From Turicibacter sp. (GTDB taxonomy: Bacteria; Bacillota; Clostridia; Lachnospirales; WQUN01), in assembly GCA_009778175.1 (NCBI GenBank), contig WRKH01000320.1, forward strand, positions 1 through 48,718: a DNA stretch of 48,718 bases. Reading direction: 5' to 3'. The notes beneath the pieces were generated by a model. It was not told where the DNA came from, did no database searches, and saw only the letters and a program-made list of their open reading frames with translations. The translations under genes and the position numbers were made by a program. How positions within the stretch are numbered: position 1 is the stretch's first letter; each line of letters starts with the position of its first letter. Positions 81-48,504 of the stretch are shown here, piece after piece.

Positions 81-2042
81 TTAATTTTTTGGTTGTGATA
101 GGTCTAAAATCCAATTGTGTCCCATTACAGGTGAGCTGTTCTTCCACTCACCATAACGAAACTTGTTATATTCAAAAAGTGTCCCAAATCCATTATAATA
201 TCCAAATTTTGATTTAGAATGACCACTTACACCACCCACGTACCAATAGCTATCGTCAAAACTTGCCATTGTCATTACATCAGATCGTCCACTATCATCG
301 GGAATCCATCGTTCAGGCTCGTTGGCTTTTATGACATTGCTAGATTTTAGAGGGCTAGGGTTTCGAGGGAGTTCATTTTTAAAAATTCCTTTCATTTTTT
401 CTATTCTCTTACCAAAAGGAGCGCCGTTTACCCATTTTCCAGCTCGATAGTCGTTGTCAGGGGAAATCATAACGCCCCAACCATTAGCGTTACCGTAAAT
501 ATGTTCAAATTCGCCGATATAACGGCTTCCGTCTCCAAAAGTCCACATTCCCCAATTACGGTTTTCGTCTCCGAAAGTCCATATTTCCCAATTATTGGGA
601 TTACTCTCAATAATCAAACCAAAATAGTAAACCATTCCCCTACTACGTGTCTCCACTTGCAGGTTGCCGTAATATGGTTGCGGTTGGTTTTGCGGTGCTA
701 TTTGCGGCGGATTTGACACACTTTGCGGTGGTTGTTGTGGTGTGATTAGCGGTGCTTGTTGTTGCGGTTGTGCGACAGGTTGCTTGGTTTGCGGTTGCGG
801 TGCAGCAGATTGTGGCTTGATTTGCGGTTTTGGTGCTGGCTTTGGCGGCGGTTGTGGTTTTGGTGATGGCGTGGATTTTGGCAGTTCTTGTTTTTGAGAC
901 ATCGGAGCAGGTTTTACAGGCTCGGCTTTTGTGGATTCCGCTACTTTTGGAACTTCCGCAGTCTTTTCAGCTTTTGAAACTTTCGCTTCCGTAGATTCAG
1001 CAACTTTTTTAACTTCCGCTACTTTTGGAGCAGGCTTTACAGGTTCGACTTCCGTAGATTCAGCAACTTTTTTAACTTCCTCTACTTTTAGAACTTCCTC
1101 AACCTTTTCGACTTCCTTGGGTTCTGCAACTTCGACTTCTTCCGTAACCTCTTCAACTTCCGTAATTTCAGGGGCTTCCTCTTCCACTTCTGGATTTATA
1201 TAACTTTTATAACACCCCAACAAAGACTCCACATTGCCAATTTTACCCTTAACAACATTTTCATATTCCTCGAAAAATTTATCCCTCTCGCTTTCCTCCT
1301 TAACACCAACAATCCATTCTACATACTCCGCCAAATCGTCCTTTGCGTCAAATTCCGTGCCGTCCTCTTCTACAATGACCAACTTGCCCTCGTTACGTTT
1401 ACTCACGGACGATAAGGCAATCAACCCCAACCGATAATCCGATTTTAACAGCGTTTCCGTATCACAGGAAGTAACAAAAGAGGTCGTTGTCCGTAAACCA
1501 ATCGGCAGGTATGTAAATATCTGCTTTGCGTATTGCCTAAATATTTCAAATTGTCCGCCGCTGCCGTTATTGTCATTGTTATCGAGAGCAAAGGCAACGG
1601 CGATTTTCTTGTCCTTTTCCGAGTGCAAAATATGGATTACTTTGTGCAAAATATCACTCTTAATGTCATACGTACCAGACCCAGCGGTGCGGTTAATGTC
1701 TCCGCTTTCTCGCAAGGCGTTTATATCGTCTTGATTGGCAAAATCGCTTAACATCTCATCAAAAAAATCGGCTTTTATAAAATCGTCGCGACGATATTTG
1801 TGCCATTTCACATGATTATAAAACGCACCTCTGTCAAAATTATTGTCTGCTGCATATAGGCTGAAAATAGTAGTAAATGACAGGCCATCGGAAACTACTT
1901 TGTAAGTAAATAACGGCTCTGCCCAGTCAGTGCCAAAGTTATTGATTTTCTGCATATATTCACTTATTTGCGGAGTGCGCGGATTGTCGTCCTGATAGAG
2001 TAACCCATAGCTTGTCCCACTGTTTCCAAATACAAATTCCAT
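81..2042 (-). CDS. Candidate GTPase-associated (GAP1-like) N-terminal domain, long V/E/K/P/Q low-complexity linker, C-terminal MORN-like repeats
   Basis: 653-aa ORF next to a GTPase gene; C-terminus has MORN-like GMWTFGDGSRYIGEF and related units; the GAP1 assignment is by eye and gene context only. Confidence 0.6.
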   Translation of the reverse strand: MEFVFGNSGTSYGLLYQDDNPRTPQISEYMQKINNFGTDWAEPLFTYKVVSDGLSFTTIFSLYAADNNFDRGAFYNHVKWHKYRRDDFIKADFFDEMLSDFANQDDINALRESGDINRTAGSGTYDIKSDILHKVIHILHSEKDKKIAVAFALDNNDNNGSGGQFEIFRQYAKQIFTYLPIGLRTTTSFVTSCDTETLLKSDYRLGLIALSSVSKRNEGKLVIVEEDGTEFDAKDDLAEYVEWIVGVKEESERDKFFEEYENVVKGKIGNVESLLGCYKSYINPEVEEEAPEITEVEEVTEEVEVAEPKEVEKVEEVLKVEEVKKVAESTEVEPVKPAPKVAEVKKVAESTEAKVSKAEKTAEVPKVAESTKAEPVKPAPMSQKQELPKSTPSPKPQPPPKPAPKPQIKPQSAAPQPQTKQPVAQPQQQAPLITPQQPPQSVSNPPQIAPQNQPQPYYGNLQVETRSRGMVYYFGLIIESNPNNWEIWTFGDENRNWGMWTFGDGSRYIGEFEHIYGNANGWGVMISPDNDYRAGKWVNGAPFGKRIEKMKGIFKNELPRNPSPLKSSNVIKANEPERWIPDDSGRSDVMTMASFDDSYWYVGGVSGHSKSKFGYYNGFGTLFEYNKFRYGEWKNSSPVMGHNWILDLSQPKN

Positions 2043-2057
2043 TACAAACCACCTATT

Positions 2058-3698
2058 TTATATAACGCCATCGACTTTTAGGATACGCAGGAAAGCTAAG
2101 CCGTTTAAGAAGCCTTGTTTAGCCAGCCTATCATTTTTTTCTTGTGGTGTTTCTGGTTTTTCTTCTCCTTTTGTGAGTCTGCTCTCTGCTGGTCTTCCAT
2201 ATGGCGAAGTAGGGATAAAGCAGATTTTTTTGTCCTGGTAACGCTTGCTAACGGTACTTACGAGATCGGGAATTTTCCTTCTTAGGAATTTTTCCGTATT
2301 CTCTGTAACAATTTTCCAGTTATCTTCGTTCCATTCGCCGTCTTCCCCATATATGTCCGATTCCTTCAGCTGATTGGTTTCGACTAGATTGTTTATTTTG
2401 TCTACATTTTTGTCTCCTTCTCCTGCATAGGCATCAAATTTATTTGCCAAAAATGTTATGCTCCGCAAATTTTTTTCTTTGGGTTTAGTATAACCAATAT
2501 GTTTCTCAAATTCCTTGATTAAATGTGTTTCTTCGTACAAATTATCCTCCTTGTAATCTTCGCCTAGCCTTTTCAATACCTGCGATGGATCCAACGCACA
2601 TATAAGATGCCTACTTTTATGGAAAATTCTGCGATCATCTCGTGCATAATTACTTCTCTGGTCATTCTTCACACCGTCTTTATTGATAAACGCCTCCCCT
2701 GGATAATCGACAAAGACGTAAATAACATTGTTTACCAAGAATGATAGAATGGGAGCACTCCCCCTTTCAATAAACGGAGTTTTATTAGGAGCATAGCCAT
2801 CCTTGTACTCCTCATAGTTAATCTCAAATGGAGTTAAATCGTCGTCAAGGGTAAGTGTTTGGATGTCAAAATGATCGCTTGTACGGGTAAACGGCGATTC
2901 GTGTATTGTACAGTAATATAGGGCAAGTAGTATCGAAGTTTTAGCCGCATACGCCGAGCCAAGCATTGTAATGGGAACTATTTTAAAATAGCCAAACTCT
3001 AACGGAAGTTTATGCCCACAATCCCTGCAAATTTTAGATTTTTCCTCCATCTTTCCACTGTTCATGTTAAAAACAAACATTGCATCTGGTACACGATATT
3101 CTGGTTTCTCTTTATTTTCCTGACTACAATACATTCTAACATACAGCTCTTTGCTTTCAGTTTGATTCTTGAAAATGTGTAGCAATATTTCAATCAAACC
3201 TCTTACGGCAGGCGATACAATATTAAAATCCTGTTGGTTTGGGTAGCATCTACGCCAAATCGGTTTAATGCAGTTGTCTATTATTGTTGAGTCGTTGAGG
3301 ATTGGTGCATCGTGGAGTACATTTCCGTCAGTTGCGTATTCGTTAAGTTTTTTCATAAATGCTTTAAAATTTTCTCTATGTTGGAGAGGGACGTTTCGCC
3401 TTACGATATAATCAAAAATTTCCTCGTTCGTGAGTTTAAAAACGTAGTATTTATTGAAATCTCCAGCGTATCCTCCTTTCTCACCCGTTTCTAGTTGAAT
3501 TTGAGAATCGCTGACTCGGTCTAACGAAAGGATTGCCTCCTCGTCAATGTAGTATTTAAACTCAAATTCGTACGTTTTGAGATTGTTCATGATTTCGTCA
3601 TTGGGCGAGATTAGCGGTTTAACATACTCCGAAAAGTCAAACGCTACATCTCGTGCAATGAAACTTTCGCCGCAATTTGGGCATATTATGTCATACAT
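2058..3698 (-). CDS. Zinc-ribbon P-loop GTPase (TRAFAC-like / double-GTPase-like)
   Basis: N-terminal CPNC plus internal CRDCG; G1-like GSAYAAKTS, G3-like DYPGE, G4-like NKFD; RBS AGGAGG upstream of ATG. Confidence 0.65.
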   Translation of the reverse strand: MYDIICPNCGESFIARDVAFDFSEYVKPLISPNDEIMNNLKTYEFEFKYYIDEEAILSLDRVSDSQIQLETGEKGGYAGDFNKYYVFKLTNEEIFDYIVRRNVPLQHRENFKAFMKKLNEYATDGNVLHDAPILNDSTIIDNCIKPIWRRCYPNQQDFNIVSPAVRGLIEILLHIFKNQTESKELYVRMYCSQENKEKPEYRVPDAMFVFNMNSGKMEEKSKICRDCGHKLPLEFGYFKIVPITMLGSAYAAKTSILLALYYCTIHESPFTRTSDHFDIQTLTLDDDLTPFEINYEEYKDGYAPNKTPFIERGSAPILSFLVNNVIYVFVDYPGEAFINKDGVKNDQRSNYARDDRRIFHKSRHLICALDPSQVLKRLGEDYKEDNLYEETHLIKEFEKHIGYTKPKEKNLRSITFLANKFDAYAGEGDKNVDKINNLVETNQLKESDIYGEDGEWNEDNWKIVTENTEKFLRRKIPDLVSTVSKRYQDKKICFIPTSPYGRPAESRLTKGEEKPETPQEKNDRLAKQGFLNGLAFLRILKVDGVI

Positions 3699-6894: not shown

Positions 6895-7542
6895 CTATTG
6901 CACATTTATCGAATCAACCACATACATCAACTGAAAATTACCAACACTCGAGTCTAAATAATACTCACTACGATCACTGGGCAATAAAGAATATACCTTC
7001 CTACCGCCCAAATCCGTCTGCATTATCACTCTCTTTGTGCCGCTTTTGTTGATTTTTATCTTTTTGACGATCTCCCGTTTGAAGAGACTTATCCTTATCT
7101 CTTCATCATCACACGAAACTTTCCTTACTGCCGTATCCGCCGCCACCTTCCTTGCAAAGCTGTGGAATATCGTACCGCTCTGATGTATAAAGTAGAAAAA
7201 ATACAAGCAACCTGTCTGTGTAATTTCCACATCGCACTCGGATCTTATGTGATTGCCTGAATTATAGCTATATGTCGATATACCATCGTACTGCCCACCA
7301 TTTGCCATAAATGCTTCGTAAGTATGTTCTTTCATGCCGCGAAACATATACGAAGTAATGGAATCCTGCGTAAATAATGAATGTTCCATTATCTCACTTT
7401 CATCGACAATTCGGTGCAATAACTGCAAGGCTGGTTGGGGCTCCTCGTTAATAATCCAGTCCCATCTAAACCGAAATATCGGCTTTTTTTTGGAGTTTTG
7501 CGATAACGTGCAACTTATGTTTCTTATGATGTTTTTTTCCAT
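6895..7542 (-). CDS. Hypothetical protein in tubulin/vWA operon
   Basis: ORF with RBS AAGGGGG upstream of ATG at 7542 (MEKNIIRNIS...); co-directional. Confidence 0.6.
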   Translation of the reverse strand: MEKNIIRNISCTLSQNSKKKPIFRFRWDWIINEEPQPALQLLHRIVDESEIMEHSLFTQDSITSYMFRGMKEHTYEAFMANGGQYDGISTYSYNSGNHIRSECDVEITQTGCLYFFYFIHQSGTIFHSFARKVAADTAVRKVSCDDEEIRISLFKREIVKKIKINKSGTKRVIMQTDLGGRKVYSLLPSDRSEYYLDSSVGNFQLMYVVDSINVQ

Positions 7543-41105: not shown

Positions 41106-41375
41106 ATGAACACTTCAAAAATTGAAATCAAGGAAAGCTGGATTAGGGTAGAAAATGCAGAGGAAATGGCAATCGGCTCAGTTAGCACGCTGTACCCCGA
41201 CCATTATGCTATTTTTGAGATAACTAGGATAGTGGACGGGTTTCGTCAAAGAGGCAGAGTGCTTTATTTGCTTGACGATGGGTACGATGCTATAAATTTG
41301 CAATTTGATTTCTACGATGAAGGAAACATGAATATAAGAGCGATAGCAGGGGTAGATTTACCATGGCAAATATGA
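41106..41375 (+). CDS. Small partner protein, module copy 1
   Basis: RBS AAGGAGGG before ATG 41106; three paralogues in tandem. Confidence 0.8.
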   Translation: MNTSKIEIKESWIRVENAEEMAIGSVSTLYPDHYAIFEITRIVDGFRQRGRVLYLLDDGYDAINLQFDFYDEGNMNIRAIAGVDLPWQI

Positions 41376-41839
41376 CACCAAATCAGGTTGAAATAGCTGA
41401 AAACGGGCGAATTTATTACGATTTGTATATAAAGCCTTTTGACGAGGTTACTATGCGGCAAATTAGATTTCAGTATGATACAGGTGCTGATAATTGTTTG
41501 TTAGATATTGCTGCGCTAAACAGACTCGGCTACACCAACGACTGGATAAAAACAACAGGAGAACCCAAAAAGGTCTACACAGCCGATTTGAAATTGGTGG
41601 AGGAGTGTTTTGTGATAAAACTGCCAAATGTAACCATCGGCAAGCACAGTTGCACCAACTTTCACATAGTAACGTCTTTGTCAGCCAAACTAGCCCCGCT
41701 ACTGGGCTTGAATTTCATTAAATTTTGCAACTGGTTTTTAGACTACGAAAAAGCCGTTGCCGATTTTAAGCTAATCAGGGAAATTTTCCCGATAAAACAG
41801 GGCGATTTCGGTATTCATTTCACGCAGGGAAAGATTTAA
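41363..41839 (+). CDS. Retropepsin-like (clan AA) aspartic protease, module copy 1
   Basis: FQYDTGADNCLLDI (DTGA active-site motif) and LAPLLGLNFIKF. Confidence 0.75.
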   Translation: MANMTPNQVEIAENGRIYYDLYIKPFDEVTMRQIRFQYDTGADNCLLDIAALNRLGYTNDWIKTTGEPKKVYTADLKLVEECFVIKLPNVTIGKHSCTNFHIVTSLSAKLAPLLGLNFIKFCNWFLDYEKAVADFKLIREIFPIKQGDFGIHFTQGKI

Positions 41840-41857
41840 TACGAGGAGGAAAATAAA

Positions 41858-42121
41858 ATGACAACTTCAAAAATCAAGGAAAACTGGATTAGAGTAGAAA
41901 ATGCAGAGGAAATAGCAATCGGCTCAGTTAGCACGTTGTACCCCGACCATTATGCCATTTTCGAGATAACTAGGATAGTGGACGGCTTTCGTGAAAGGGG
42001 TAGAGTGCTTTATTTGCTTGACGATGGGTACGATGCTATAAATTTAAAACATGATTTTTACGATGAGGGCATTATGAATATACAGGCGATAGCGGGGGTA
42101 AATCTACCATGGCAAATATGA
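41858..42121 (+). CDS. Small partner protein, module copy 2
   Basis: Near-identical to copy 1 except C-terminus; RBS GAGGA. Confidence 0.8.
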   Translation: MTTSKIKENWIRVENAEEIAIGSVSTLYPDHYAIFEITRIVDGFRERGRVLYLLDDGYDAINLKHDFYDEGIMNIQAIAGVNLPWQI

Positions 42122-42579
42122 TGACTAACCAGGTTGCAATCGCCGACAACGGGCGGATTTATTACAATGTGTACATTAAGCCTTTTGATAATGTTACCAT
42201 GCAGTACATTAGATTTCAATATGATACGGGTGCGGACAACTGTATGCTAGACATTTCTGAATTAAACAGACTCGGCTACACCAACGATTGGATAAAAACA
42301 ACAGGAGAACCCAAAAAGGTCTACACAGCCGATTTGAAATTGGTGGAAGAATGTTTTGTGATAAAACTGCCAAATGTAACCATCGGCAAGCACAGCTGCA
42401 CCAATTTCCACATAGTAACGTCTTTGTCAGCCAAACTAGCCCCGCTACTGGGCTTGAATTTCATCAAATTCTGTAGCTGGCACTTGAATTACAAGGAATA
42501 TTTTGCCGAATTTGAGCTGATAGAGGAAATTTTCCCGATAAAACAGGGCGATTTCGGTATTCATTTCACGCAGGGATAA
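42109..42579 (+). CDS. Retropepsin-like aspartic protease, module copy 2
   Basis: FQYDTGADNCMLDI; LLGLNFIKF; 13-bp overlap with upstream gene. Confidence 0.75.
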   Translation: MANMMTNQVAIADNGRIYYNVYIKPFDNVTMQYIRFQYDTGADNCMLDISELNRLGYTNDWIKTTGEPKKVYTADLKLVEECFVIKLPNVTIGKHSCTNFHIVTSLSAKLAPLLGLNFIKFCSWHLNYKEYFAEFELIEEIFPIKQGDFGIHFTQG

Positions 42580-42603
42580 ATTTAATACAAGGAGGAAAAT
42601 AAA

Positions 42604-42864
42604 ATGACAGCTTCAAAAATCAAGGAAAACTGGATTAGAGTGGAAAATGCAGAGGAAATAGCAATCGGCTCAGTTAGCACGTTGTACCCCGACCATTATG
42701 CCATTTTCGAGATAACTAGGATAGTGGACGGGTTTCGTGAAAGGGGTAGAGTGCTTTATTTGCTTGACGATGGGTATGCGGCTATAAAGCTAGAATCCAG
42801 TTTGTATAGAGATGGACTAGATGTAAGAACTATAACGGGGGTAAATCTGCCATGGCAAGTATGA
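42604..42864 (+). CDS. Small partner protein, module copy 3
   Basis: Paralogue with divergent C-terminus (AAIKLESSLYRDGLDVRTITGVNLPWQV). Confidence 0.8.
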   Translation: MTASKIKENWIRVENAEEIAIGSVSTLYPDHYAIFEITRIVDGFRERGRVLYLLDDGYAAIKLESSLYRDGLDVRTITGVNLPWQV

Positions 42865-43325
42865 TGACCAATCGAGTTGCAATAGCCGACAGCGGAAAAA
42901 TTTATTACAATGTGTACATTAAGCCCTTCGACGATGTTACCATGAAACCTGTTAGATTCCAGCACGATACAGGTGCTGATAACTGTATGCTAGATATTTC
43001 ACGCCTAAACGAACTAGGCTACACCAACGACTGGGTAAAAACAACAGGAGAACCCACAAAAATTTACACAGCCGATTTGAAATTGGTGGAGGAATGTTTT
43101 GTGGTAAAACTCCCCAATATAACCATCGGTAAGCACAGTTGTACCAACTTTCACATAGTAACGTCTTTGTCAGCCAAACTAGCCCCGCTACTGGGCTTGA
43201 ATTTCATTAAATTTTGCAGCTGGCACTTGAATTACAAGGAGTATTTTGCCGAATTTGAACTGATAGAGGAAATTTTCCCGATAAAACAGGGCGATTTCGG
43301 TATTCATTTCACGCAACAAACATAA
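42852..43325 (+). CDS. Retropepsin-like aspartic protease, module copy 3
   Basis: FQHDTGADNCMLDI; LLGLNFIKF; same 13-bp overlap. Confidence 0.75.
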   Translation: MASMMTNRVAIADSGKIYYNVYIKPFDDVTMKPVRFQHDTGADNCMLDISRLNELGYTNDWVKTTGEPTKIYTADLKLVEECFVVKLPNITIGKHSCTNFHIVTSLSAKLAPLLGLNFIKFCSWHLNYKEYFAEFELIEEIFPIKQGDFGIHFTQQT

Positions 43326-43329
43326 AAAT

Positions 43330-43358
43330 CCCCCGCCAATCGGCGGGGGAAAATTTTA
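43330..43358. terminator. Strong hairpin terminator between convergent genes
   Basis: cccccgcc-aatc-ggcggggg with flanking A/T tract. Confidence 0.8.
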
Positions 43359-43359
43359 T

Positions 43360-46300
43360 CTATCTTCTGATATTTACCGTCTGAGTCGCCTCGTCCCAGC
43401 TTACTTGCACGCCCAAACTATCAGCTATGTACCGCAACGGCACAAAAGCTCGATCGTTTACTATCATGGGCATTCCCAAGCCATCGGGGAGCGGCGTGTC
43501 CAGCGGTAACTGTAAAACTACGCCATTGCTGATTATAACGGCTGTCCTTGCTTCAGCGTTCCAATTTACGTCCGCACCGAATATCTCGGCTATAAGCCGA
43601 AGCGGCATCATTGTGCGGTTGTACTCTGGGTCGATAAACGGAGCTAAGCCCTCGCTATCGGTTGTTTGTACGCCGTTTATTGTGTGAGTCGCTTGCCCGA
43701 TTGTGAAAAACATCTCAATCGGCTGTGGCTGTGGCTGTGGAGCTGACTCGGGTGGAGCGGTAACTACCTCTTCTACGACTATTGGCTCGATTGTCAAGGT
43801 AAGTTCTAGGGATTCCACTACCGCCTCGCTCTCTTCATCGTATAAACTTAAAGTTAGGGTGTATGTACCAGCCACATCGTTCGTAACGCCCTCTAAATCA
43901 AATGGCATTACTTCGTCCACGACTTCCGCAAATGTCATCTCTGAGACGATTTCTTCGAGTGCGGCAACTACCTCTTCGGGCAATTCGTCCGTTTCGGAAA
44001 TTTCCTCTTCCGCCGTCTCGTTGTAAATCTCTATCGCAAGCCCCAAAGCCCATTCTGGTGCGGCTGAACTTGCGAAATTTACGCCCGTCGGTAAGCCTGT
44101 GAGATTTAGTTGGTATACGCCCGTTGCTACATCTGGCAGGAAAATATCCCACTCGGTGGAATCGTCTACCGCTATTGTGATGGTTAGTGCAATACTACCG
44201 TCTTCTTGGATAAAACCTGGTAAAGCTGCCTCTGTTACTTCGGCTGCAACCTGTACAGGCCGTCTGGGTATCCATGGTGTTATCGGAATAACAGGTCCTT
44301 CTAGGAAATCATCCTCTGGTTGTTCGAAATGACCGCCGCCGCCAAGGTCTGGTTGCGTGGGTGGCTGTGTGGGTGGTTGTGTGGGTGGCTGCGTAGGTGG
44401 CTGTGTCTCTGTTTCCACCAAAAAGACAACGCTTTCGCTTAACGGCGAACTTATGTGAGTTGTGTAATTGCCCACGGCTCTAAGCTGTATCGTGTAACTA
44501 CCTGCCGAAAGCTCCAAATTTCCAAGGTCAAAGCTAGTGCCTTCCAACGCCAATTCCCTTAACGTGCCGTCCACATAAACGCTATATCCCACCGCTCCAG
44601 AAACGGCGTTCCAACTCAAGATTGTGTCAGCTATGCTCAAATTGGTAGGTGCTGGCAATGTCGGAAGCTCGGTGGCTACCACTTCAATGGAAAATGTCAT
44701 GCTAAGCAGCGAATCGGCAAATCTTGTACCGTCTCCAATCGCCCTTACCTGCAGATTGTGCAGCCCTGCGGGAAGATTCAATTCCTCCAAATCAAAATAA
44801 TTGTAATCTGCTGTCGCAACCCTTGTGCCGCTTAAATAGATTGCATAACTAGCGGAGCGGGAAACAGCGTTCCAATGGAATACCGTGCCGATCGCATCCA
44901 AATGCGTGGGTGTAGGCAACTGAATCTCTCCTAGCTCGCCAACCAACAACGTAAACGGCAGAGAAATTCCACGCCCCGCAACTGTCATCGTCAACACCAA
45001 ATCAAACTCACCCTCGGGCAAACCATCAGTCGCTGTCGCTCCAAATAGCGTTACACCCTGCGTTACATCAACCGAAATCACGCCATGCCCATCTTCTACC
45101 GTCAAAGTCCCCGTTCCGCCATTCTGAATTACAGGACTATTCGCACCCGCTATTGCTGTGCCAAAATCAATATTCATCGGATTATAACCCGAAAGCACCA
45201 TCGTCCGAGTGTAATTCATTGCATCAGGCCAGGGCATCCTATCCCTTGCCACGCTCCGAGGCACGCTTAACGCTATATTATACGTACCATCCGCAATTCC
45301 AGCCACATCAACATCAAACTCCACCGTACCTGCCGTGCGTTCCAAAATTTCATCAGCTTGGAAAATGCCCTCAATCCTCGGTGCGTTGGCGGCGACCGTG
45401 TAACTTACCTGTGTCCAGCTACTCACGCCCAAGGCGTTCCCAGCACGTATCCTAAAATTATAAACGCCGCCCCTTTGCAGATTCGCAATAACCCATGGGG
45501 CTGTATAGGCTAAATCACTAGGCTGTGGCACATCGGATGCAGAGTAAATCGGGTTGTCGGGGTGTCCGAAATTTGCGTGCGGGAACATAACCTCATAACC
45601 CGAGCCGCCTAAATGAACGGCTACCCAGTTGTGCCCGCCGCCTTGCATTACCATATAACCAAAATCGCTCATATCCTGCGTTGCAAAACTGTTCGGCCTT
45701 GCGGTGGCGATGTGTGTGGTAAGATTTCTCCACGTCCCATTATCAAGGAATTCTATCTCAAAAAATTCCGCCTGCGGGTCGTTGAAATTCCAGTCTAACG
45801 TAAAGGTGTGCGGATAAGTTATCGAACGCAGAGACGGCGTGGGCGAACCCTGCCTGTGCATAATGTATTGCAGTTCGTTAAAGGAAACTTGAAAGCCAGT
45901 CGGAGCGGCGGGCGTATGCGAAAAATGAAGAGGCATAACGCCGACACTCGCCTCTAAATGTGCCACCAAAGCGGCAACTTGCCCTGCCGAACCCGTGGGG
46001 CGAATATCCAACGGCGAAGTGGACGGCCTAAAATCGCCCTCAAATCCCCAGCCGTGGTTAGCGGCGTTGCCGTTTAATGCTGGAAAACCTGGGTTTACTT
46101 CTTGGTCTATCTCTGGTGGCATCAGCATTGTGGCGGTTTGATCTATTATGATACCGATATCCAAATTGGGGTCAAAAGTGCTTGCGGTGGCGGCATCCAT
46201 TATGTTTGGCTGCATTTGTGCAACGGCGGCTGCAAAATCATTCCACTCCTCCATTGTGCTCCAACCCCGAGCGGTATTTCTGTACCCCAAATCTCCGAGC

Positions 46301-48504
46301 GGCGGAATCGTCATAGCACCCACGGAGGTAAAATTCTCTCGGCTTAAATTGTCGCCCGTTACGAGAAAACCAGGCCCGTCGCCGAAAAAGTGGTTATGCC
46401 CCGTATGCGGTGCAAAGCCCCTTGCGTGGCCGTGCCGAGAACGCAGAAATGGAAAACCTACATTTTCAAAGATATTGCCTTCCGCCCAAATTGTGGCGTT
46501 ATGTGCCGCACCTATGCCGTATCCCGTGTATCTGTCCGCCAAGCGATAATGCAACGGATGCCCGATAACTTCTCGGAATAGATTGTTGAACATATGCTGA
46601 TTGTGGTGGCGGGTTCTTGGATTTCTTTCCTGTGCATGGTCGTAGATGTTGCTGTGCAACGTGCCGTAATGCCTGTGTACATTGTTGTCAAGATTCTGAT
46701 TCTGCACGCCGCCCACGACTAGATGAGTGCCGCGCCCGCCGTTAAAATGATTGTAAGAAATTGTGTAACCTCTGACATTTTGCTCTATATCGACCGAACC
46801 CTGCCCCATAGTGCGGTCGGTCTCTTCATCATTGTAGAAAAAGCGATTTTGCCCGAAATGAAAGGTATTGTTGTGTACCCAAAGATTGGTTGTGTTGCCG
46901 CTTGCTCTAAAACCCTGCTGGAAAAATTGGTCAACGGCTAAATTCCGATAAACTACATTAACCGCCCCATTTGTGAACATTCCCCAACCGTATAATCTCG
47001 CATCATTGCCGACCCCCTCAAAGGTGATTCTGTGAGCTGTGTTGCCTTGCATGGTCATCATACGATTGCCGCCCATAGCATCGGGAGGTAGCACCGCACC
47101 CGCCGCCGCCGCTGTGTTTGCAACTCGGTCAAAAGCCCCGACCGTTCCGAGAAAGCGGATTACCAAGGGATTTCCGCCTCGGAAAGCACTATTTATATTA
47201 AGGTCGGCGATGGTAAAATTCGCCCAATTATTATGTGAAACGTACATGATGACGGCATCTGGATCGATTCTGCCGTCAGAGAGATAACCGCCCGTTGCGC
47301 CGTATAACGCCCAGTCGGTTTGGGCGGAATTGCCCAAAAGCTCATTCGACGGAATAAAAGCCGCCCCCAACCTAGAAAAGCTCTCCGTACGAAGCGAGCC
47401 AAAAGCCTCCACCACCGCACCGCCTTGTCGGATTTCTACATCGTAAGTGCCTCGTGGCAAGCCTTGAATGTCTACTCGCCAAATATTGCGGGCGGAGTCG
47501 ATTTGGCGGATAAGTTCGTTGTCAACCTGCACCCAGCCATTCGCCATGTCCCAAGTGGGGTCGTAGCTTGTGATACTTTCGCCCGTCCGCCAATAATAGG
47601 CATTTTGCCCAGGCGTAAGCCGTACGAAAGCCTCGAAAGGCCCAGCACCTGTCCAGGTCGCCCACGCTGTCTCAAACCAAGTACCTGCCGTATCGCCCAC
47701 GAATGGCGTAATCATCGCTGTTATTGGGAGAAACCCGCTGACGGTTACGGTTGCACTATGTTCGCCCGCCTCGAGTTCGGGGTTTGGTGCTATTTCAAAA
47801 TAAGCCGCCGCTCCTGGGGCTAGGTACATTATTTGCGTGGTGGAAAGGGAGAAAGCCGTGTCGTTTGATATTGAGATTGAAATGTTTAGGATTTCTTCAC
47901 GCAGATTGGTGATTCTAACCTGCCTAGGGGGAGTTTCGCCGTCCTCTTCGCCTACCCAAAAAACGCCCTCTCTAACCACGCCGAAATTGATGTTTTCGTG
48001 TGGGTAGAGTTCAAGGCTGGCTGGAATGGTTTGCAAAAAGTCCAAGCCGTCCGCCGCCACGCTAAATGCGTATGCTAGGTTGCCTTCTTCGGGTTGGTCG
48101 TTTTCGTCTTCGTCTTCGTTGTCGTTGTCGTTGTCATTGTCATCGTCATCGCCGTTTTCGTTGTCGTTTTCGTCGCCGTTTTCGTTGTCATCGTTGTTTT
48201 CGTCGTCGTTTTCGTCTCCATTTTCGTCGCCGTTGTCATCGCCATTTTCGCCGTCTTCTTCTTCTTCGGCTGGCTCTTCGTCTTCGTCTTCTTCGGATTC
48301 GATTTCTTCCTCATCGGCTATACCCATCTCGTCATTTTCAAGCACGGTGATACTAACGTCAAAGGACTCCGTGCGGATAGGTATTGCTTCCTGCCACTCT
48401 TGCTGTTCGTTTACGCCCTCGTTTGCGTACACGAAATTTGCTGAGGTGATTAGCATAACCACCGCTAGCAACATTGCCAGATACTGCTTTGTTCGTTTTT
48501 TCAT
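43360..48504 (-). CDS. Large secreted surface protein: acidic D/E/N repeat, pectate-lyase (PL1-like) beta-helix, Fn3-like repeats, PTQP linker, C-terminal copper-amine-oxidase-N-like/stalk domain
   Basis: Signal peptide; YTISYNHFNGG...RNPRTRHHNQHMFNNLFRE; C-terminal MPLRLIAEIFGADVNWNAEARTAVI..FVPLRYIADSLGVQVSWDEATQTVNI. Confidence 0.85.
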   Translation of the reverse strand: MKKRTKQYLAMLLAVVMLITSANFVYANEGVNEQQEWQEAIPIRTESFDVSITVLENDEMGIADEEEIESEEDEDEEPAEEEEDGENGDDNGDENGDENDDENNDDNENGDENDNENGDDDDNDNDNDNEDEDENDQPEEGNLAYAFSVAADGLDFLQTIPASLELYPHENINFGVVREGVFWVGEEDGETPPRQVRITNLREEILNISISISNDTAFSLSTTQIMYLAPGAAAYFEIAPNPELEAGEHSATVTVSGFLPITAMITPFVGDTAGTWFETAWATWTGAGPFEAFVRLTPGQNAYYWRTGESITSYDPTWDMANGWVQVDNELIRQIDSARNIWRVDIQGLPRGTYDVEIRQGGAVVEAFGSLRTESFSRLGAAFIPSNELLGNSAQTDWALYGATGGYLSDGRIDPDAVIMYVSHNNWANFTIADLNINSAFRGGNPLVIRFLGTVGAFDRVANTAAAAGAVLPPDAMGGNRMMTMQGNTAHRITFEGVGNDARLYGWGMFTNGAVNVVYRNLAVDQFFQQGFRASGNTTNLWVHNNTFHFGQNRFFYNDEETDRTMGQGSVDIEQNVRGYTISYNHFNGGRGTHLVVGGVQNQNLDNNVHRHYGTLHSNIYDHAQERNPRTRHHNQHMFNNLFREVIGHPLHYRLADRYTGYGIGAAHNATIWAEGNIFENVGFPFLRSRHGHARGFAPHTGHNHFFGDGPGFLVTGDNLSRENFTSVGAMTIPPLGDLGYRNTARGWSTMEEWNDFAAAVAQMQPNIMDAATASTFDPNLDIGIIIDQTATMLMPPEIDQEVNPGFPALNGNAANHGWGFEGDFRPSTSPLDIRPTGSAGQVAALVAHLEASVGVMPLHFSHTPAAPTGFQVSFNELQYIMHRQGSPTPSLRSITYPHTFTLDWNFNDPQAEFFEIEFLDNGTWRNLTTHIATARPNSFATQDMSDFGYMVMQGGGHNWVAVHLGGSGYEVMFPHANFGHPDNPIYSASDVPQPSDLAYTAPWVIANLQRGGVYNFRIRAGNALGVSSWTQVSYTVAANAPRIEGIFQADEILERTAGTVEFDVDVAGIADGTYNIALSVPRSVARDRMPWPDAMNYTRTMVLSGYNPMNIDFGTAIAGANSPVIQNGGTGTLTVEDGHGVISVDVTQGVTLFGATATDGLPEGEFDLVLTMTVAGRGISLPFTLLVGELGEIQLPTPTHLDAIGTVFHWNAVSRSASYAIYLSGTRVATADYNYFDLEELNLPAGLHNLQVRAIGDGTRFADSLLSMTFSIEVVATELPTLPAPTNLSIADTILSWNAVSGAVGYSVYVDGTLRELALEGTSFDLGNLELSAGSYTIQLRAVGNYTTHISSPLSESVVFLVETETQPPTQPPTQPPTQPPTQPDLGGGGHFEQPEDDFLEGPVIPITPWIPRRPVQVAAEVTEAALPGFIQEDGSIALTITIAVDDSTEWDIFLPDVATGVYQLNLTGLPTGVNFASSAAPEWALGLAIEIYNETAEEEISETDELPEEVVAALEEIVSEMTFAEVVDEVMPFDLEGVTNDVAGTYTLTLSLYDEESEAVVESLELTLTIEPIVVEEVVTAPPESAPQPQPQPIEMFFTIGQATHTINGVQTTDSEGLAPFIDPEYNRTMMPLRLIAEIFGADVNWNAEARTAVIISNGVVLQLPLDTPLPDGLGMPMIVNDRAFVPLRYIADSLGVQVSWDEATQTVNIRR

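Follow-up and report, generated by a model that had tools for sequence, protein, structure and literature searches.

The window, the whole 48,718-nucleotide stretch of DNA analyzed here (contig C320 of a 2.70-Mb, 320-contig genome, G000), carries a tandem triplication of a two-gene unit encoding a small partner protein and a retropepsin-like aspartic protease, and these units belong to a family that is very probably a cognate two-gene module related to the PADLOC candidate PDC-M08. The fuller reading, to which we give an even chance, is that an active retropepsin is restrained or directed by its cognate partner and has diversified with it as matched pairs, probably with a role in conflict.

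The array occupies positions 41106–43325 (plus strand) and consists of three units of ~746 bp with a period of 743 to 752 bp, each with a partner open reading frame (ORF; 86 to 89 aa) followed by a clan AA protease ORF (156 to 158 aa), the two overlapping by 13 bp in all three cases (Table 1). These ORF coordinates bear out the tandem units, gene sizes, and exact overlap given in a preliminary description of the sequence, and the DTGA and LLGLNF motifs (found in all three proteases) and the terminator closing the array were also correctly identified there. The ribosome binding site that it assigned to each gene is clear only for the partners, which have strong Shine–Dalgarno sequences, because nothing but a G-run (GGGGT or GGGGGT), located inside the partner gene, precedes the protease starts. 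The array is flanked by a glutamine synthetase gene and a gene for a large secreted-looking protein (both named by eye), which are ordinary genes and form no defense island. The latter (43360–48504, minus strand) converges on the array terminator and encodes a 1714-aa product that has a TQPPTQPPTQPP linker and, at its N terminus, a long acidic stretch rich in Asp, Glu, and Asn; the terminator may be common to both converging transcripts. We found no conserved genomic site, in that the array is not beside glnA in 13 relatives. The three copies are 81 to 91% identical at the protein level, which rules out an assembly duplicate as their source, and dN/dS between copies is below 0.55 in every segment compared, indicating purifying selection; no positive selection was found in these comparisons of tandem-array copies. 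Because of this identity and purifying selection, we conclude that the copies are maintained coding genes and not spurious ORFs.

Table 1. Features of the tandem partner–protease array in the window
Feature	Coordinates	Strand	Description
Partner gene copy 1	41106..41375	+	89 aa; no Pfam family; Shine–Dalgarno AAGGAGG just 5′
Retropepsin-like protease copy 1	41363..41839	+	158 aa; DTGA/LLGLNF; PF13650 25.4 bits
Partner gene copy 2	41858..42121	+	87 aa; Shine–Dalgarno GAGGAGG; model alpha-beta-beta-alpha-beta, pLDDT 86.7
Retropepsin-like protease copy 2	42109..42579	+	156 aa; DTGA/LLGLNF; PF13650 25.0 bits
Partner gene copy 3	42604..42864	+	86 aa; Shine–Dalgarno AAGGAGG; C-terminal half divergent
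Retropepsin-like protease copy 3	42852..43325	+	157 aa; DTGA/LLGLNF; PF13650 29.8 bits
Hairpin terminator	43329..43350	.	9-bp G+C-rich hairpin, 3′ of last protease stop

The array is not the one-off that it had first appeared to be. One protease used as a query finds 13 related places in the source genome, and a profile built from 12 proteases finds 22 matches there, including a few that are short or weak, so that the genome encodes about 20 such proteases. Protease matches are present in 22 of 61 relatives' genomes, with 1 to 24 per genome, and are nearly absent outside the bacterial family: of the 291 other class members searched, 3 have matches. These three matches all have a small upstream partner, of three types: one of the same kind as in the window family (L182), one canonical PDC-M08 (L184), and one of another type (L183). 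The L183 protein (FAWFKEHYADFQKKYGESFIAIKNKKILGVYDSYGN...; 1956–2196, minus strand), a different small protein upstream of a clan AA protease, looks DUF5678-like by eye, with no Pfam hit. In a narrower survey, the named near relatives carrying loci are Bacillota/Defluviitaleaceae metagenome-assembled genomes (two named assemblies), whose isolate names read as termite gut in origin. Searches of 50,697 phages with a window protease and of 72,556 plasmids with its C287 paralogue gave no match, and lend no support to the idea that the window's own branch arose on a phage or plasmid.

Pairing of the two genes was surveyed at ~100 loci, comprising 126 protease matches in 22 genomes, with the last 15 cases judged by eye. 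An intact small partner lies immediately 5′ of the protease in 119 of the 126, and the others have a truncated or frameshifted partner (three), consist of a protease fragment preceded by an intact partner (two), adjoin a contig end (one), or have no partner (one). The preliminary description had proposed that protease and cognate partner are translationally coupled and were amplified in tandem, naming a protease commonly found without the partner as the observation that would count against it; with a single partnerless match in 126, the pairing stands. That one clan AA protease (L135; G018:C53, 467–901) probably belongs to another protease family. When the ATG nearest the partner stop is taken as the protease start, it overlaps the partner stop in 93 of 110 cases, 4 and 8 nt being the commonest overlaps. 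Partners vary widely, the common motif type being EIxxKYPxKWV (116 partners). In about 14 cases a complete pair has an extra partner nearby, and another two partners stand alone, but no case of two proteases on one partner was seen in the survey; the association is thus asymmetric, with partners occurring without a protease and proteases almost never without a partner. Distances among partners and among proteases correlate (r = 0.82 for 114 pairs), as they do within the source genome (r = 0.94, 19 pairs), with none of 1000 permutations as high, and we conclude from this that the pairs are inherited as units. Such co-divergence is no proof of binding, because it is expected for any pair inherited in this way.

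Several individual loci depart from the simple two-gene arrangement. On C287 of the source genome, genes for a TIR-domain and a TPR-repeat protein are situated between partner–protease units (L013, 4199–6850), and the protease at 7005 retains only the C-terminal part of a partner, as if truncated by insertion. Both genes are frameshifted at L014 (G000:C24, 967–1640), reflecting either a decaying pair or assembly errors. At L060 and L063, a 307- to 325-aa open frame with a weak match to the partner profile lies beside the pairs. L012 (G000:C281, 1435–2194, minus strand) includes two small Cys-containing ORFs with similar N termini beside an ABC-transporter-like gene, and these look like peptide (RiPP-type) precursors.

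Three tandem arrays (the window, L178, and L179) are mosaic in sequence. In most comparisons, the copies are diverged (dS from 0.4 to saturated) over the C-terminal half of the partner and over the first part of the protease, as far as a point just beyond DTG. They are more alike over the 65 protease codons that follow (dS of 0.18 to 0.45), and we infer that the protease core may have been gene-converted and that a block spanning the junction of the two genes has been diverging. The mosaic fits matched specificity and also simple conversion, and is a lead, not a proof. Divergence in the partner C-terminal half and the N-terminal third of the protease, with a homogenized core, would be expected if specificity is set there, as it would be if the partner were a substrate-recognition or activating subunit, with the paralogues providing different substrate specificities in regulated proteolysis. 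Partner duplicates upstream of one protease could then be alternative adaptors, and characterized bacterial A2 peptidases are said to involve other protein factors in their activation (PMC11957791). Nonetheless, we think an adaptor function unlikely, as there are partner-only genes and essentially no protease-only genes, and an adaptor would be useless without its protease unless it serves a paralogue. We are also quite doubtful of a grander possibility, in which a lineage-specific arsenal of up to 24 pairs per genome would form a protease-based immune repertoire with many parallel specificities, the partners, as a small and newly recognized family of regulators, co-diversifying with the N-terminal third of the protease as a matched specificity cassette while the core is homogenized.

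The preliminary description recognized no described system with this structure, but the same two-gene layout is already catalogued as PADLOC candidate PDC-M08, a distant homologue of both genes, which comprises PDC-M08A (small) and PDC-M08B (an aspartic protease). Both have a small YPxxWV-type partner first and a clan AA protease second, on the same strand with ends overlapping. The PDC-M08B model matches 9 of the 12 proteases (best E 2e-6; window protease E 0.013), and the PDC-M08A model barely matches 2 of 14 paralogous partners (best E 0.018) and gives no hit with the window partners. Comparison using hhalign of 116 partners with 27 PDC-M08A sequences gives 95.4% (range, 93.6-95.4%; reversed control, 0.5%), and of 124 proteases with 18 PDC-M08B sequences 98% (reversed control, 0.3%); judged by these alignments, each gene has its homologue in PDC-M08. 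Moreover, a genome of the same order has a protease gene, matched by the window profile, that shares a 4-bp overlap with a canonical PDC-M08A gene (E 1e-20). Because its partner fails the PDC-M08A model, we regard the window family as a divergent sister branch, greatly expanded within a single Bacillota family, and not as a member of PDC-M08. The two differ in the C-terminal half of the partner and in copy number, with up to 24 matches per genome in the window family compared to 1 to 5 canonical PDC-M08A in a survey of 250 genomes of the phylum, 18 of which have PDC-M08A, mostly followed by PDC-M08B. Using a self-made consensus-like sequence as the query, we found the canonical pair on Clostridioides difficile phage phiCDIF1296T (L193, 4001–4634), where PDC-M08A is followed by a gene annotated as Asp_protease_2, and also on plasmids of Clostridium taeniosporum and Alicyclobacillus. 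The PDC candidates originate in a preprint on guilt by embedding (doi 10.1101/2024.01.29.577857, cited in PMC12988326). PDC-M08 is a database candidate for an anti-phage system with putative anti-phage activity, and our literature search found no published experimental test of it and, in the papers searched, no mention of the name.

A small first gene, an overlapping second gene, and a partner that is tolerated alone are also reminiscent of type II toxin-antitoxin systems. If the protease were a host-directed toxin neutralized by the partner as antitoxin, with phage- or plasmid-style maintenance as the main selection, then the gene order, overlapping ends, and orphan asymmetry would be accounted for, together with the canonical pairs on a phage and plasmids and the many paralogous copies per genome. 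However, the putative toxin would have to be the protease itself, neither Pfam nor Foldseek recognizes a DNA-binding domain in the partner, and the window copies, which have a chromosomal location, show ordinary purifying selection; we consider a strict toxin-antitoxin system unlikely.

All three window proteases exceed the cut-off of 24.3 bits for Asp_protease_2 (PF13650; Table 1), the catalytic Asp is invariant in all 124 sequences covering the site (DTGA in 97), and the Gly of the hydrophobic-hydrophobic-Gly motif is present in 120 of 122. A single D-[TS]-G[A] and a hydrophobic-hydrophobic-Gly motif per chain are shared with the clan AA/MEROPS A2 retropepsin-like proteins (PF13650 and PF13975, including RimB, RloA, and APRc), from which the window protease differs in that no signal peptide is evident in its sequence. 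A2 peptidases must be dimeric for activity. Each ~157-aa chain here has a single DTG, which implies dimerization of any active enzyme, and judging from these motifs the window-family protease is presumably dimeric and active as an endopeptidase. The predicted protease structure is of low confidence (pLDDT 56, from nine sequences), its best PDB matches being endothiapepsin (E 0.08) and HIV protease (E about 0.7), with none at E≤0.001, and alignment of all 12 proteases revealed no conserved block. Although TIGR02281 (clan_AA_DTGA) matches weakly round the active site (E about 3e-5), the scores of 21-24 bits are well below its cut-off of 57.95, and we rejected membership. RimB and RloA have operon partners (RimA/RimK and RloB/RloC, respectively), and a constant small partner such as that of the window family is undescribed for them (PMC11957791, PMC12239564).

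A Pfam scan places the window partners in no family. The partner is modeled as a compact alpha-beta-beta-alpha-beta domain, with a pLDDT of 86.7 for the best of five models and near 60 for the others, and the fold has no significant match in the PDB or among viral models. DUF5678 (PF18929) was considered and rejected, as it gave no hit in any partner scanned; a search for it in 150 genomes of the phylum, including the source genome, also gave no hit, with the controls silent too. The compact fold bears on whether the partner might be a dedicated substrate or propeptide whose cleavage acts as a signal. Retropepsins classically process one cognate polyprotein, and one-to-one pairing with co-translation would suit such an arrangement, but a compact folded domain is not a flexible substrate, and no conserved cleavage-like segment stands out among the 116 partners; we consider a substrate role improbable.

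The genomic settings of the pairs raise the question as to whether they act in conflict at all. Physiological roles are known for the bacterial retropepsins RimB and RloA (PMC11957791, PMC12239564), and many loci, including the window, sit among housekeeping genes, so that housekeeping or niche-specific regulation unrelated to phages, such as stress-related proteolysis like that of RimB or Rlo, might be suggested. Such a function fits less well with copy numbers from 0 to 24 across genomes of one family, with an array missing beside glnA in 13 relatives, and with the related canonical pair residing on a phage and plasmids, and we find it rather unlikely. The support for defense is circumstantial, and comprises the candidacy of PDC-M08, the mobile settings, copy-number volatility, the lack of the array beside glnA in those relatives, and the defense-type neighbors of some pairs (TIR and TPR genes at C287, a PDC-S09 match at C300, and a type II methyltransferase at C293). 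We regard an anti-phage or anti-element role as a realistic possibility, although somewhat short of probable.

In the mechanism that we favor, the small alpha/beta partner would be made first and the single-domain retropepsin-like aspartic endopeptidase second, the two being translated together and most likely binding as a cognate pair. The partner, which is probably a direct regulator of the protease, would restrain (or license) the dimeric enzyme until a trigger relieves it, and the freed protease could then cleave host or phage proteins. The likeliest role would be in conflict with phages or other mobile elements.

What appeared as a local triplication is part of a family of more than 100 natural pairs. 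Their catalytic residue is invariant, their unnamed partner is constant, and they are linked to a candidate defense system. If the partner does control the protease, the family would represent a compact protease switch available in many matched, naturally diversified variants, and would provide a testable mechanism for PDC-M08.
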